From Pseudomonadales bacterium (GTDB lineage Bacteria; Pseudomonadota; Gammaproteobacteria; Pseudomonadales; Azotimanducaceae): a stretch of 64,000 bases of DNA. The notes under the pieces were generated by a model, which ran no database searches, was not told the origin of the DNA, and saw only the letters and a program-made list of their open reading frames with translations. Both the position numbers and the translations under genes were made by a program. Position 1 is the stretch's first letter, and every line of letters begins with the position of its first letter. The DNA lies in the NCBI GenBank assembly GCA_023300545.1, contig JALZVT010000079.1:1-64000 (forward strand). Direction: 5' to 3'. This document shows positions 1,897-58,146 of this stretch, one piece after another.

Positions 1897-2278
1897 AGTT
1901 AGCTCCTGTCTTGGGTTCTTGTAGACTAGTCTTAGTTTGTTTAGTTCGCTCTGGCCACGTCAGGGCATGAGTTTTGGCGGCTTGTCGTGGCTTAGTCGAT
2001 GACTATACCGAAGTGGCCTTCCATACAGTAGTTCGGGGTTTGGCGATCGCGAGCGCCGCCGGATTAATGGTGTCATTTAATCGACAAATCCCGTTAATGC
2101 ACGAATAGCCGTGATTCAGAAGTCGTTGAATCGGTGTTTTTTGGCTCAATCCGGCGATTTGACTGCAAAATTTGACGCTCTTTGGCAGCTTAAGGGCTTA
2201 ATCGTGTTGAATCGCACGCAGTGCGACAGGTGTAAAATGATTGTGAACGTTTCTTTCGGAAGCAGTTCCGGGCTTGGT
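1897..2278. other. Intergenic region, divergent between bufA1 and a decayed gene
   Basis: This 382-bp gap must hold the bufA1 promoter (reading leftward). I could not fix a convincing -35/-10 pair or a recognisable metal-regulator operator, and there is no RNA gene visible. The bufA1 ribosome site AGGAG lies at its left edge. Confidence 0.4.
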
Positions 2279-3136
2279 ATGAGAAGGAAATGGTTGTGCG
2301 CGCTCCTCGGTGTGTTTTTGCTCTCCCCACCCCCAAGCCGTTGCTGCGCCGTGGGACGGGATTGAGATTGCTGATCAGGAAATCGTTTCTGGCTCAAGTC
2401 AAAATTTCTCTTACATCACTGCCAGCTCTTTTGAAGTGGCTTATTTGAGTTCGCCGATCTTTGTGTCTCGCGGACACGAGCGAGGCTATGTTCTGTGTGT
2501 CAGTGCCGGAATTCATGGCGACGAGCTCAATGGTATGGAGATCGCCAAAAGGGTGTTTTCCTATACCGAGCATCAACGAGGACGGTGCCCGGTCTTGGTC
2601 CAGAAACATGATTGATAAGAGAGATCTCAATCGATCCTTTCCGGGGGCCAGCACGGGCAGTATCGCCGCTATTGTGGCTAAGGCGACAATGTCCGTGGTT
2701 CGTGGGCATTGAACATTGCTCGTTATTTTGGCGTAGGAATTATTGCGTTGGGTGAGGGACCTGAGGGAAATCTGCGGCGAGAATCAAGCAAAGCAGGCCT
2801 GCCGTCTATTATCTACGAAGTGGGCGTGTCAGGAACCTTTCAAGAAGCGGAGATCCAGCAAGGTGTCCGAGGACTGATGAGTATCCTGCGCTATCTGGAG
2901 ATGCTTCCAACCGGCGAGATCACCAGGCTACCTGAATCCAGAATATACGATACAACCCAATGGGTTCGAGTTCCCGCGGGCCGTGGCGGGTATTTCTTTC
3001 CCACCTGTTCGTTGTCTTGTTATGCGCCGGTGCACATCGGTATATCATCGCAGGCGTTAGATCGCTGAGGAGGGTCTGGTTATCTGTGGAACGCAAAGCC
3101 CAGGAGAGATTGCTATCATCAGCATTTTGAGTAGTC
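2279..3136 (+). pseudogene. Decayed succinylglutamate desuccinylase/aspartoacylase-like gene
   Basis: Three overlapping frames together spell a periplasmic AstE/AspA-type zinc hydrolase. A signal peptide starts at the 2279 ATG (MRRKWLCALLGVFLLSPP) and continues in another frame as QAVAAPWDGIEI, with the shift in a C-rich run near 2325-2335. Then come the zinc motif SAGIHGDELNGMEIA, a frame change near 2545-2560, the substrate motif KRDLNRSFPG, a further change near 2700, and GLPSIIYEVGVSGTFQEAE. At the second and third breaks residues are missing, including the stretch that should carry the DLHTGS zinc His, so deletions rather than simple read errors are likely. No intact product is expected. 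Confidence 0.8.
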
Positions 3137-4060: not shown

Positions 4061-5027
4061 CGACTACCTTATATACAGCTATGCCTTTAATACTGAGGGT
4101 CACGCAGAAAAACTGGAAGCTGCCAAGGAGCTTGATATAGGCGCAGCCAAGCAGTCGTACAGCTGGCTTCACATGCATGCGTTGCATGAAGGTACGCGAG
4201 ATTTTCTGGAGAACGATACCGATCTCGAGCCCATTATTATCGACGCCATGCTGGCAGAGGAAACGCGGCCACGGGCACTGGTAAAAGATGATGGGATGCT
4301 GGTTATTCTGCGCGCCATTAACTTTGACCAAGGTGCAGACCCGGCAGATATGATTTCCATTCGTCTGTGGATCGACAATAAGAAAGTCATTAGCACCCGA
4401 TGCCGAGATATTAGGGCCATTGGGGACATTATTGATTTTATCGAGCAAGACAAAGCGCCGCTTAGCCCCTGTGACTTTCTGATTACCATCACCGACAGGC
4501 TGTTTGAGCGGATGCAGCCGTTCTTCGCGGATCTGGAAGATCGAATTTCTAGAGCTGAGGAGCTTTTAGCGCGTAACGAGGAAGATGAAATTGCCGATGA
4601 TGCGGCATTAGTGCGCAAGCGGACCGCGATTTTTGCACGGTACGTCACGCCGCAGAAAGCCGTTCTGGAGACGCTCGTCAAGGCCAAATATGAGTGGTTT
4701 GAAGAAGAGCACAGAGAGCATTTAGTGGAAAGCCTCGACCGGGTAACTCGATATGTCGAGGAGCTTCAAGAGCTGCGCGAACGCTCCCAAATTTTGAACG
4801 ACGAACTGAACAACGCACATGGTCGACGTCTCAATGACATTACGTACATTTTTTCTGTTGCCGCAACGGTATTCCTGCCACTGAGTTTTTTGACTGGCTT
4901 AATGGGAATTAATGTGGGGGGGATGCCCGGGATAGAAAACGACCAAGCTTTCTGGGGGTTTGCCGGGTTTTGCGTTCTGATTATTGTTGCTCAGGTGGCT
5001 ATCTTCAAAAAGTTGAAATGGTTTTAA
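4047..5027 (+). CDS. CorA/ZntB family divalent cation transporter
   Basis: 326 residues from a GTG preceded by AGGAGAAGTA. The open frame extends upstream inside the channel gene, but that start has no ribosome site. A long helical cytoplasmic domain is followed by two C-terminal membrane helices. The signature loop reads GINVGG (residues 287-292) instead of the GMN of CorA or the GVN usual in ZntB. The overall sequence (SWLHMHA near the N-terminus, EELQELRERSQILNDELN before TM1, FLPLSFLTGLMG) fits the ZntB branch, which moves Zn2+, probably with protons. The transported ion cannot be told from sequence. Confidence 0.85.
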   Translation: MSQLNDYLIYSYAFNTEGHAEKLEAAKELDIGAAKQSYSWLHMHALHEGTRDFLENDTDLEPIIIDAMLAEETRPRALVKDDGMLVILRAINFDQGADPADMISIRLWIDNKKVISTRCRDIRAIGDIIDFIEQDKAPLSPCDFLITITDRLFERMQPFFADLEDRISRAEELLARNEEDEIADDAALVRKRTAIFARYVTPQKAVLETLVKAKYEWFEEEHREHLVESLDRVTRYVEELQELRERSQILNDELNNAHGRRLNDITYIFSVAATVFLPLSFLTGLMGINVGGMPGIENDQAFWGFAGFCVLIIVAQVAIFKKLKWF

Positions 5028-5223
5028 AGGCGCTGCCGCAGACTGTTTGACGATGCGGGAGAAATTTAGTTGCAGGGGTTCTTTGTCGTGTATTTTGTTG
5101 GCGAACCGTCAGCAAAGCTGAGCCTACAGTTCTTGCAAACTCGCTGACGAGTATCGGGGGCAGCATCTGTGCCGCGGCAAACACTCAGTTCTGTCACTCA
5201 TTGAATGTTAAGGGGGGGGTAGC
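5028..5223. other. Leader region before NrtS gene
   Basis: A 196-bp gap. It ends in a run of eight G just before the NrtS ATG, an unusually G-rich ribosome site. A TGGC...GC pair near 5100 has the spacing of a sigma-54 promoter but misses the TT of the -12 box, so I do not call it. No RNA gene is recognised. Confidence 0.3.
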
Positions 5224-5442
5224 ATGACAAGGCTAAGAACAGTACTTCAGGCTGCGTACCTGCGTCGCGCGTTGGCGGTTGCCGTGGTCGTTGGGACAGC
5301 CCTAAATATGATCAATCAGCCAGAAGTCATATTTGGTGACGCCAGCGTAACCTGGTGGAAAGTTCTTTTGACCTATGTGGTGCCCTTTTTTGTGTCGACC
5401 TATGGGGCGTACAGTGCATTGCCCAAGGCTGATGACGATTAG
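5224..5442 (+). CDS. nrtS: NrtS-like small nitrate/nitrite transporter
   Basis: 72 residues with two membrane helices (about 16-33 and 45-64). The segment ALNMINQPEVIFG followed by WWKVLLTYVVPFFVSTYGA is characteristic of NrtS, a small protein first linked to nitrate uptake in cyanobacteria. It presumably works as an oligomer in the inner membrane. It stands alone, with no nitrate reductase in the window, although cyanase and an FNT channel (33-36 kb) suggest this genome scavenges several nitrogen anions. The family match is good; the transported anion is inferred. Confidence 0.7.
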   Translation: MTRLRTVLQAAYLRRALAVAVVVGTALNMINQPEVIFGDASVTWWKVLLTYVVPFFVSTYGAYSALPKADDD

Positions 5443-5726
5443 CCTGGGCTAGGTTTTGGTCATTCTCTGGGCGCCGGAGATGCGAGAGGCAATCGCGTCG
5501 AAAACTGGCGTCTTAACAGCTTGCTAGATATCGAAGGCCACACCACATTTCGTAAAATAGGTACGAAGTTTCGTCGGGTGATTGGTTGGTCGTAGCTGAT
5601 GCTAGCTGGTGGCGGCTCTTCATAGCTCTTGAGTGCGCTAAAAAATGGCTCGAAAGTTGCAGTCTGTAGCTTTCAGCGACTGCTGCCCCAACCACTGCTG
5701 CCTAAACCACGAGGTCACTTTAATTC

Positions 5727-47328: not shown

Positions 47329-47974
47329 CGCTGCACAACAGGCCTATTCGAAGATTCGCCAAGGCATTCTCGAGGGCGATTTTGATCAGGGCGCGCGGCT
47401 GCGTGAGTCTGAGTTGGTTGATTACTGTGGCGTCAGTCGAACGCCGATACGGGCGGCTTTGCAGCGTTTGATTGCAGAAGATCTAGTGGTGGCGGTCCCT
47501 AATCAGGGCGTTCGTGTCAGAACCTGGTCGGAGCATGAAATCGAAGAGCTGTACGCTCTGCGCAGTATGCTAGAGGGTTATGCGGCGTCGTGTTCGGCCA
47601 GCAACATAACTCCCGTTGAGTTGGCCGAGCTTTCTGCGCTGGTCGAAGAGACAGATGTGCTGCTCAACAAAAGTAAGATCTCAGCAGATGAACAATCCCG
47701 CGAATTTTTACGCCTTAACGCCAAGATTCACAAACTGATCTGGCTCAGTAGCCGAAGTGAACGGCTGATTGGCATACTGTCTTTGTTAGTTGACCAGTCG
47801 CTACAGATGCGCACAGCGCGCATCTACTCCTCGAGTGGTCAGCTACGCTCGCACCATCACCATCAGGATCTATTGGCGGCGCTTACGGCGGGTGATGGGG
47901 CTTGGGCTGAGCGTACGATGTTCAGTCACATCAGGGCTGCCAGGCACGCGCTATCTGCCGATTCAGCAGACTGA
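47321..47974 (+). CDS. GntR-family (FadR/FCD) transcriptional regulator
   Basis: 217 residues from a GTG overlapping the upstream stop. Winged helix (RQGILEGDFDQGARLRESEL, GVSRTPIRAALQRL) and an all-helical FCD domain with metal-site His/Asp (AKIHKLIWLSS, LRSHHHHQDLLAAL). The HHHHQ run at the C-terminal metal site is unusual. It probably binds the TTGTATACAA-type palindromes at 46607 and 48028 and so controls the receptor, the hydrolase, itself and the following CoA-transferase. Confidence 0.9.
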   Translation: MASAAQQAYSKIRQGILEGDFDQGARLRESELVDYCGVSRTPIRAALQRLIAEDLVVAVPNQGVRVRTWSEHEIEELYALRSMLEGYAASCSASNITPVELAELSALVEETDVLLNKSKISADEQSREFLRLNAKIHKLIWLSSRSERLIGILSLLVDQSLQMRTARIYSSSGQLRSHHHHQDLLAALTAGDGAWAERTMFSHIRAARHALSADSAD

Positions 47975-54205: not shown

Positions 54206-56410
54206 ATGGCTCACAGCAACAAAACCAAGTATTCCGTTTGTACGATCTGCGATATTGGTTGCCAGCTGCGCACTGAAACCGAAGAGGGCAAACTCAGCCG
54301 CGTACTCGCCCACGATAATCCGATGCTTGCGGCCAACATCTGCTACAAGGGCGTTGCCGCCCCAGACATCCATAACCATGCTGATCGTATTCGGAAACCG
54401 CTCAAGCGCATTGGCGAACGTGGTGCAGATCGCTGGGAAGAAATTTCTTACGAACAGGCGATGGACGAGATTTCTGAGCGACTTAAGACCGTAGTGAGTG
54501 AACATGGTCCGGAAGCGTTAGCTGTTTCCACTTCGGGTTGGAATACCCAAACCACTCACAGCACCGATCGCCGCTTCATGAACCTGCTGGGCTCACCAAA
54601 CTGGATCAGCGGCGTTGCGCTCTGTGCGGGTAACACAGCGGCGGTCAATCGACTGACCTATGGTTGGTTTCCACAGCCAGACTGGGCTAAGACCGAGTGC
54701 ATTGTTTTGTTTGGGCATAACCCGCGCAAACATTCATGGACCCCCATTTTTAACGCGATCAAAGCCGCTCGCGCGCGAGGAGCCAAAGTTATTGTGCTCG
54801 ACCCGCGGATTTCCGACCAGGCCGAAACGGCAGATTTGCACCTCAGAGTGCGTGCAGGCACCGATGCGGCTATGTGCCTTGGCTGGCTAAAGGTCATTTT
54901 TGATGAAGAACTCTATGACAAGGAATTTGTTGCGCAGTGGTGCACCGGCTTTGATGAGCTCAAGGCGCGAGTTGATGAATACCCGCTAGAGCGGGTCGAG
55001 GAGATCACTGGTGTTGATCGGGCATTGATTGCTGAGGCCGCTCGTATGTATGCCAATGCTAAGGGTGCGGTGATACCTTGGACACCCATCACCGACCAAC
55101 AAATTTCCTCAACGTCAGCGATTCGCCTACATTCTATTCTGCGCGCGGTGACGGGTAATCTGGATGCACAGGGCGGGGAAACGCTTGGCGGGTTTAACCA
55201 AAGTTACATCCCCGAGTCAGAAATTGGGTTGCACGATCTGTTGCCTGACGAACAGAAAGCAAAGCAATTGGGTTTTGACGATCACCCAGTGTTTACCTAC
55301 CGCGTGGCTGAAATGCTGAAAGAGCCAACCGAAAAGGTTTGGGGCTTCCCTTATGCCGATATTGTTATGGGGTGCCAAATGGCAAACCCAACCAATGTGT
55401 TTCGCGCCATGGCTCATGGCGACCCTTACCCCATAAAGGCCTTCATCGCACTGGGTAACAACGCGCTGTTGAGCTATCCGAACCAGCATCAAATTCATGC
55501 CGGGATGATGAATCAGGATTTGATTGTCGCGCATGAAATATTTATGACGCCCACTGCGATGCTGGCTGACTATGTGCTGCCGGGAGACGTATTCACTGAG
55601 CGTAACCATGTCGCCGATAGCTGGAGTTGGGGAAATCGACTGACTCTGTCGCAAAAAGTGGTTGAGCCGCCTGCCGAGGCGTCGAGTACTTTCCAATTTT
55701 GGACAGACCTCGCGAAGCGATTTGACTTTGCTGAGCACTTTCCTTGGGAAACTCTGGAAGACATGCTTGACCATCGACTTTCTCGCTCCAATCGGACCTT
55801 TGCGGAGTTCGAGAGTGAGACCTTTATGGAGGTGCCAACACCCGAATTTCACAAATACCGTGAAACGGGCTTTGCCACGCCAACAGGCAAGGTCGAGCTG
55901 TTCTCGAGCGTGTTAGCAGACCTTGGCTTCGACCCATTGCCGTACTATCGAGAAGGTCCTGCCCTTAGCGAAGAATACCCTTACGCAGTGTTTACGGGTG
56001 TTCGTGAAGATGCATTTTTCCAAACCGGTCAGCGCAACATTGCTGTGCTGCGTGAGCGCTCGCCGTCGCCAAAGCTATTCCTACACCCAACCGATGCGAA
56101 CAAAGAAGGTTTGGTTGATGGCGACTGGGTGAAATTGACAACGGTAACGGGCGAAGTGCAGGCGAAAATATTGGTCCAAGAGTCGATGAAACAGGGCCAC
56201 ATTCGTGTGCCCCACGGTTGGTGGTACCCAGAATTGAGAGGGGCAGAACCTTTGGCGGGTGCTTTCCTGTCAAGCGATGCGGTGTTGTGCGCGGATGCTG
56301 ATGAATTTCTGGACTACGAACAGGGCATTCCACATTTCAAAGGTTTCCCGGGGCGCCTGACCAAGATCGCTGCGCCGCAGAACATGTCGGCGATGGTGCT
56401 CGATGGTTGA
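54206..56410 (+). CDS. Molybdopterin-dependent oxidoreductase with 4Fe-4S site
   Basis: 734 residues of the DMSO-reductase/formate-dehydrogenase-like superfamily. N-terminal Cys cluster CTICDIGCQL with a fourth Cys in ANICYKG. The molybdenum-ligand region around VALCAGNTAAV offers a Cys as ligand. LDPRISDQAETADLHLRVR and the C-terminal HPTDANKEGLVDGDWV (MoCo dinucleotide domain) complete it. No twin-Arg signal is visible, so it is probably cytoplasmic. The electron partner and substrate are unknown. It overlaps the next frame by three bases. Confidence 0.87.
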   Translation: MAHSNKTKYSVCTICDIGCQLRTETEEGKLSRVLAHDNPMLAANICYKGVAAPDIHNHADRIRKPLKRIGERGADRWEEISYEQAMDEISERLKTVVSEHGPEALAVSTSGWNTQTTHSTDRRFMNLLGSPNWISGVALCAGNTAAVNRLTYGWFPQPDWAKTECIVLFGHNPRKHSWTPIFNAIKAARARGAKVIVLDPRISDQAETADLHLRVRAGTDAAMCLGWLKVIFDEELYDKEFVAQWCTGFDELKARVDEYPLERVEEITGVDRALIAEAARMYANAKGAVIPWTPITDQQISSTSAIRLHSILRAVTGNLDAQGGETLGGFNQSYIPESEIGLHDLLPDEQKAKQLGFDDHPVFTYRVAEMLKEPTEKVWGFPYADIVMGCQMANPTNVFRAMAHGDPYPIKAFIALGNNALLSYPNQHQIHAGMMNQDLIVAHEIFMTPTAMLADYVLPGDVFTERNHVADSWSWGNRLTLSQKVVEPPAEASSTFQFWTDLAKRFDFAEHFPWETLEDMLDHRLSRSNRTFAEFESETFMEVPTPEFHKYRETGFATPTGKVELFSSVLADLGFDPLPYYREGPALSEEYPYAVFTGVREDAFFQTGQRNIAVLRERSPSPKLFLHPTDANKEGLVDGDWVKLTTVTGEVQAKILVQESMKQGHIRVPHGWWYPELRGAEPLAGAFLSSDAVLCADADEFLDYEQGIPHFKGFPGRLTKIAAPQNMSAMVLDG

Positions 56411-56916
56411 TCGCCCGTTTTAATCCACCACTTTTATTGTTGCAACGCCTCAAAGTTGGCCCGGCCACCTTTTACGGCATGTCCTCGGGCTCACGCTCAA
56501 ATATGATTCTTGCAGAACGCTATCCAGAACAGGTTGCAGCATTGGTCATCTCTCCGTTGACGGGTGGTTCAATTGCGGCACAGCGACTGTCAGAAGAGTA
56601 TTATCTGGGCTACCTTAGCAATGAAAACCAGACATCGATGGAAGAGGTCGCCAAAACACCGCTGTGGGCGTCTTTTTATGCCAAAACAACACTGGGCATG
56701 ACGAATGGGCAGCTCGCCGCACTTGAAGTGCCAGCGACTCTCATTCTTCATCACGGCGCTGAGCGAGATTTTTTGCACCCCATTGTTAACTCACGTGCGG
56801 CTACTACTCTGCTGCGTAATTCAAAATTTGAGATAGCGCCGACGCTTGAGCCGATACTGGAGGTGTTACTGCCTTTTGTGAAGCAGCACACGCCGGTAAT
56901 GGATGTTGAAAGATGA
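56407..56916 (+). pseudogene. N-terminally truncated alpha/beta hydrolase remnant
   Basis: 169 residues from a TTG overlapping the previous stop. The text starts directly in the helix before the nucleophile elbow (GPATFYGMSSGSRSNMIL), which lies at residue 26 instead of about 100, so the first four strands and the oxyanion loop are missing. The Asp region (LILHHGAERDFLHP) is present. The final His is missing, because the expected GH strand reads SKFEIAPTLEPILEV. It is still coupled by overlaps on both sides. Non-functional is likely; an accessory peptide is possible. Confidence 0.6.
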
Positions 56917-58043
56917 TTGCGTTTGACTACGGCAAAGCCCCATATCCCATCCGCCCAGATATTCCCGCTGCCTATCAGGCATTTTGGCAGCGTTTGGCAC
57001 GGCCGGGAAGTTGGTGGACGGGAGAGCAACGTGTTGCAATTGCTGCGGAGACTCGTGCAGCTCTGGATTGCAATTGGTGTGCAAGCCGTAAAGCCGCTTT
57101 AAGTCCCTATGGTCAGGAAGGCGAACATACCCAGTATGCGCAGGCAACGGGAGTGCTATCTGATTTGGCAGTGGACGCCGTACACCGAGTCATTACTGAC
57201 CAAAGCCGGATTACCCAACACTATGTGAATGACAACGCTGAGCGAGGTCTTAGCAAGGGCGCTTACGTTGAGCTGGTTGGTCTTGTGGTTGCTGTGTTTA
57301 GCATCGATGAGTTTCATCGCGCGCTGGGGCTTGGGCTTGAAGATTTGCCCCAGCCGATTGCAGGTGCGGTATCTGAGTACAGGCCGCAGCATCTTAGTGA
57401 AGATGTCGGATTTGTACCGACTATTCCGCTTGAGGGTGCCGTTGGTCCGGAAGCCGATCTGTGGCCGAGTGGTCGTACGGCTAATGTGATGCGCGCTCTA
57501 ACACTGGTGCCCGATGCCTTGCGCGACTGGGCACACATTGGTAGCGCTCAGTATTTGTCGTTCCAACAGATGCAAAATATGGGTCAAGAAGACGGTCGTG
57601 CTCTGAACCGGATGCAGATCGAGATGATTGCGGGGCGTGTTTCTGCAATTAACGAGTGTTTTTACTGAACCAGTGCACACGCATCGATGCTCCGTGCGAG
57701 CGCCAAGACCAACCAGACCGAAATAGATTTGCAAAGCATTCGTGGTAGTGCAAATAGTGCGACCAAAGGCATTGAGTTTGGCTCGCTGTTGCTGAGGTTT
57801 GCTGAGAGTGTTGCACGACGTGACACTGTGACGATAGCGGCTAGCCGTAATGCGTTGCTGGAGTCTGCTGGCCCCTTGGTGGTAGTTGATGCGGCTGGTG
57901 TGGCTGCAAATTTCCAACGCATGGTGCGCATAGCCGACTCTATCGGCATTCCGGTCGACGATATGAACACCGAACTCGGCCAGCAGGTGCGAGCTGAGTT
58001 GAAGCTTGAAGAGTTTGCCAGCGCGCAGAACACGCTGTCGTAA
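56913..58043 (+). CDS. Two-domain AhpD/CMD-like protein with in-frame TGA (selenocysteine candidate)
   Basis: A frame of 376 codons interrupted only by TGA at 57666-57668. Domain 1 has a redox-type motif DCNWCASRKAAL near residue 53. Domain 2 has NECFY, then TGA, then TSAHASMLRASAKT, so TGA stands where the second Cys of a CxxC belongs. The second part ends in VDAAGVAANFQRMVRIADSI with no other break. AhpD-type proteins use CxxC in peroxide defence, and Sec-containing AhpD-like proteins are known. A short hairpin GCTC-CGTGC-GAGC begins 20 bases after TGA, with the loop 24 bases away and G as its second base. If TGA is not read as Sec, the product is 251 residues and this is a truncated gene. 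Confidence 0.7.
57689..57701 (+). promoter_or_regulatory. Candidate bacterial SECIS-like hairpin
   Basis: Four-bp stem GCTC/GAGC with loop CGTGC, 20-33 bases after the TGA. Loop distance and the G at loop position 2 fit the bacterial SECIS pattern, but the stem is short and its lower part pairs poorly. Confidence 0.3.
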
Positions 58044-58146
58044 AATATTGGCTAGGTAAGTGCTTGCGAATCTGCCATGGAACCTTCCCTCGGAAATCGA
58101 ATCTTAACTACCACGCCGTAGAGCACATATTGTCTTGGAAAATGCT

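Follow-up and report, generated by a model that had tools for sequence, protein, structure and literature searches.

A selenoprotein family with no assigned function has been known since 2005, when the Sargasso Sea selenoproteome listed a 'hypothetical protein 1' of unknown function that had a CXXU motif and a SECIS-like hairpin (PMC1088965). A 2026 review equates this protein with NF041238 (PMC13188914), which NCBIfam names AhpD_rel_CFYUT, 'alkylhydroperoxidase-related (seleno)protein'. The AhpD proton relay is formed by Glu118, Cys130, His132, Cys133 and His137 in M. tuberculosis AhpD and by Glu36, Cys48, Tyr50, Cys51 and His55 in PA0269 (PMC3141380). Sestrins have two AhpD-like domains per chain, with an active site located in the N-terminal domain and containing one Cys (PMC4674687), and bacterial fused-AhpD dimers and their likeness to sestrins have already been discussed (PMC11429811). 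In the literature searched, we found no link between the NF041238 selenoprotein family and sestrin architecture.

The window, i.e., the whole 64,000-nucleotide stretch analysed here, carries on its forward strand (56913-58043) a frame made of 251 open codons, a single in-frame TGA (codon 252, 57666-57668, within ...AINECFY-TGA-TSAHASMLRA...), 124 sense codons and a TAA at 58041-58043, and therefore encodes 376 residues when the TGA is read as selenocysteine. The earlier note had described the same frame as open for 125 codons past the TGA: the open frame is there, the count is 124. The read-through protein matches NF041238 over the entire profile (positions 1-357 of 357) with 442.7 bits for a cut-off of 175, the CFYUT motif with its in-frame TGA is present as CFY-TGA-T at 57657-57671, and Pfam places a CMD domain at residues 220-268. 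With a match so far above the cut-off and the prior listing, the family is already known and the gene is a further member of it: the full-length profile, the CFYUT and CxxU motifs and the downstream SECIS-like hairpin are common to both, with no substantive difference. Standard annotation would end the gene at residue 251 or label it a pseudogene, which the selenocysteine reading corrects. The length of the open frame is not decisive on its own, as a longer one follows 2 of the 67 stops in the window that come after more than 150 open codons; read-through is decided by homology, codon conservation and the sel genes. Long TGA read-throughs elsewhere in the window, at 47972 (+) and about 10605 (-), were set aside as ordinary stop and noise.

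Homologues 33–68% identical to the window protein were aligned at the TGA codon. All 46 full-length proteins read TGA at codon 252, with exactly one TGA per gene. A contig search returned 38 loci (nearly all from MAGs and single-cell genomes of gammaproteobacteria or unspecified proteobacteria, two being labelled Rubrivivax), each with a gene copy reading TGA at the aligned codon; the same TGA is carried by dozens of independent assemblies. Within the relatives of the window's genome, a single internal stop, always a TGA, interrupts every qualifying match (identity of at least 32%, E-value <1e-20, TGA site covered). The homologues examined included no Cys form of the full-length family, and the short ordinary AhpD-like proteins of two relatives (L086 and L087) carry TGC at the aligned position. 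When 274 genomes of the class were drawn evenly, the window's own genome was the sole one above the family cut-off, showing that the family is narrow; no homologue was found on plasmids. Several genomes carry more than one copy of the gene: locus L023 has two (1948-3060 and 4429-5529), both with TGA, in the same orientation and ∼1.4 kb apart, and relatives G004, G008, G016 and G029 also have more than one. Two of the 38 loci, L051 (near 3733) and L052 (near 3570), have frameshifted family copies, reflecting either assembly errors or decaying copies.

The genome of the window (G000; 4.78 Mb, 99% complete) was searched for selA, selB, selC and selD, and all four are present, each over its own cut-off, so that the selenoprotein reading survives this check. 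The selA and selB genes lie side by side on contig C22, where the tRNA-Sec gene (selC) adjoins selB, and selD lies on contig C176 within a 734-residue open frame. Across 58 relatives, selB is over its cut-off in 23 of the 25 that have the family versus 13 of the 33 that do not (Fisher p 3.6e-5, kinship being ignored in this test). The two family-bearing exceptions, G016 and G018, have partial selA matches only, and G016 has tRNA-Sec; the missing selB is therefore likely to result from assembly gaps. As a separate observation, the position of selD (C176, 18673-19587; L055) within the 734-residue frame fits an oxidoreductase-SelD fusion, with 186 bits against the fusion model (selD part only), below the cut-off of 700. 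Such fusions have been reported from marine bacteria.

A SECIS-like hairpin is located at 57689-57701 (+), 23 to 35 bases downstream of the TGA when its T is numbered 0, and consists of GCTC (57689-57692), the loop CGTGC (57693-57697) and GAGC (57698-57701). In most homologues the DNA reads GCTC-CGTGY-GAGC (GCUC-CGUGY-GAGC as RNA), and in the rest a close variant is found. To separate constraint on the RNA from constraint on the protein, the codons chosen at each site were set against the usage pooled over the same genes. Codons 260-263 (CTC-CGT-GYG-AGC, 24 to 35 bases past the TGA) are the four most codon-restricted of the 301 sites: Leu is CTC in 42/42 cases, Arg is CGT in 36/41, Val is GTG in 21/21, and Ser is AGC or AGT in 42/42. 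The nine-codon stretch around them averages 1.24 bits, compared to a median of 0.14. This restriction of synonymous codons provides strong evidence pointing to an RNA element, although it does not by itself prove the pairing. Three pairs of the stem never change and the fourth varies solely from G-C to G-U, with one break; as the stem hardly varies, RNAalifold and pair counts detected no covariation within it. Taken by themselves, the full 57 bases of the window RNA favour another helix and the hairpin is not the minimum-energy structure; it becomes dominant, with a pair probability of 0.77–0.99, only if folding begins at base 15-18, as could be the case if a ribosome covered the bases upstream. 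The hairpin with a weak stem described in the earlier note is retained as to its existence and position, whereas 'weak' sits badly with a codon constraint that is stronger there than anywhere else in the gene. An Rfam scan of 57500-58100 gave no match, and in the regions inspected out of 78 pattern matches in the genome, no further gene was found in which this hairpin follows an open-frame TGA.

Selenocysteine insertion at codon 252 is strongly supported by these data, and two other readings of the TGA have to be weighed against it. The TGA might have arisen from a Cys codon by a fresh nonsense mutation, an alternative that the earlier note had raised, or by sequencing error, leaving a pseudogene like its upstream neighbour: the open frame at 56407-56916 does look like a truncated hydrolase, a sign of decay nearby, and long open frames past a stop are not rare in the window. 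However, the homologues share the TGA, being the same sole TGA in every one of the 46 full-length proteins despite identities down to 33%, and the 124 downstream codons are conserved as protein; this refutes the pseudogene, to which we give practically no chance. The TGA might instead be a programmed stop, the product ending at residue 251 and a separate product starting from the ATG at 57687, where a 118-residue open reading frame indeed begins. The shortened product would stop immediately ahead of the second active-site position, though, and the C-terminal piece would be devoid of the motif; moreover, the C249-x-x-TGA-x-x-x-H256 spacing is exactly that of AhpD, residues 253-256, which lie between the TGA and the ATG, are conserved, and the genome has the complete sel machinery. 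We consider a programmed stop very improbable, if slightly less so than the pseudogene.

Read through the TGA, the chain has two CxxC-like motifs. As the earlier note recognized, the TGA falls on the second Cys position of a CxxC, since DCNWCAS of domain 1 aligns with ECFY(TGA)TS of domain 2; both Cys/TGA positions of each motif show no variation across the alignment (n=46). In domain 2, the AhpD proton-relay set is complete and invariant in all 46 proteins: E237 (57621-57623, +), at the general-base position 12 residues before C249; C249, Y251 and U252 of the C249-F-Y-U252 motif (57657-57668, +); and H256 (57678-57680, +), 4 residues past U252. PA0269 and M. tuberculosis AhpD have the same spacing, the gap from Glu to Cys being 12 residues in all, and U252 corresponds to Cys133 of the latter as H256 does to its His137, both histidines standing at +4. 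In domain 1, the dithiol C53-N-W-C56 (57069-57080, +) has both cysteines invariant (n=46), but the relay positions (E, Y/H and H in AhpD) are mostly V/I, L/F and K, so that domain 1 does not form a peroxidase site of the AhpD type. Alongside C53 and C56, H72 and H91 show no variation either, and these four residues could form a metal site or a second dithiol centre.

An AlphaFold2 model built from 26 natural sequences (pLDDT 90.7, pTM 0.92) found its best full-length structural matches in Sestrin2 structures (Z 17.0, 243 residues, 3.4 Å, 10% identity, model residues 1-347), and nothing but sestrins matched over the full length. Single AhpD-like proteins matching domain 2 came next, with Z up to 13.8, and the debrominase Bmp8 also gave a structural match (Z 13.2, 173 aligned residues, 2.5 Å); Foldseek against the PDB gave no match at E <0.001. 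Domain 1 predicted alone (pLDDT 83) matched AhpD-like structures with Z 6.0–8.8, the first unrelated row scoring 2.6. The predicted structures reveal a likeness of the two halves, in contrast to sequence comparison, which detected no duplication between them outside the motif (BLASTP E 0.12; hhalign probability 0.5%). Given the full-length match to Sestrin2 and the AhpD matches both to domain 2 and to domain 1 alone, the chain is most likely a fused AhpD pseudo-dimer. It shares with sestrins the two AhpD-like domains per chain and resembles them in predicted architecture; however, the active Cys of sestrins is N-terminal, whereas the relay is here C-terminal and includes Sec, and no match to a sestrin was obtained with the Pfam sestrin profile among the 46 members at E 1 or among PDB sequences at E 10, so we do not file the protein as a sestrin. 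The fold of domain 2, its relay residues and their spacing are common to the AhpD/PA0269/TIGR01926 group, which differs in having Cys in place of Sec and lacks the additional AhpD-like domain fused in front; the score against TIGR01926 was 44.8 bits, below the cut-off of 81.8. A family known since 2005 without an assigned function may thus now be read as a fusion of two AhpD-like domains, one of them with a complete relay site.

We propose that SelB with Sec-tRNA would recognise the downstream hairpin and insert selenocysteine, yielding C249-F-Y-U252 within a chain that, judging from the predicted fold and the invariant residues, would comprise two AhpD-like domains. Domain 2 would be the working site: H256 and E237 would help to activate the selenolate of U252, which would attack a hydroperoxide or a disulfide; C249 would then resolve U252 as a selenenylsulfide, to be reduced by a cellular thiol donor. 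Domain 1, with its CxxC and no relay, would complete the pseudo-dimer and may act as a second dithiol. The account as a whole (Sec insertion through SelB and the hairpin, a fused AhpD pair, and a peroxide-reducing site in domain 2) is one we hold with high confidence. Within it, peroxidase chemistry is less certain than selenocysteine insertion: a selenium-dependent peroxidase or thiol oxidoreductase is the most likely identity of the protein, and our best guess for the substrate is a hydrophobic organic hydroperoxide. What speaks against a peroxidase is that PA0269, which has the same residue set in its Cys form, was only weakly active on H2O2 (PMC3141380).

The protein could also be the selenoprotein described above and yet act as a disulfide or thiol reductase, or remove a group from an organic substrate by reduction. 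This proposal differs from ours only in the reaction and so overlaps with it. The presence of Bmp8 among the structural matches speaks for such chemistry, as does the often catabolic nature of nearby genes, in the window and in other genomes, which encode a BVMO-like enzyme, CoA transferase, acyl-CoA dehydrogenase, enoyl-CoA hydratase and luciferase-like monooxygenase; but none of the neighbours is kept throughout the family, and a peroxidase is favoured by the residue set as well as by the best sequence matches, which are to the peroxidase-related AhpD group. We regard non-peroxidase chemistry as a possibility to be kept in mind, albeit clearly the less probable reaction. A further reading, which we deem rather unlikely, is that of a sestrin-like fused AhpD dimer armed with selenium, where the CxxC of domain 1 would be an internal electron relay, or a metal site with H72 and H91, serving the CxxU site of domain 2. 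If true, one chain would do the job that AhpD shares with a separate partner.

In the window, the neighbours of the gene encode a molybdopterin oxidoreductase, a truncated hydrolase remnant, a zinc-ribbon protein and a DUF3179 protein. None of them recurs at the homologues; the search for a conserved operon found none, shared neighbours being mostly confined to close relatives, and no conserved neighbour indicating the substrate or the donor was found at the homologues. Between the molybdopterin oxidoreductase and selenoprotein genes, the frame at 56407-56916 (+) is an apparent N-terminally truncated remnant of an alpha/beta hydrolase: it starts shortly before the nucleophile elbow G-M-S-S-G and has no match in Pfam, in agreement with the decayed hydrolase reported by the earlier note. 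Its stop overlaps the selenoprotein start in the ATGA at 56913-56916. The molybdopterin oxidoreductase (54206-56410, +) has its best match to formate dehydrogenase alpha, with 307.6 bits, well below every NCBIfam cut-off shown.
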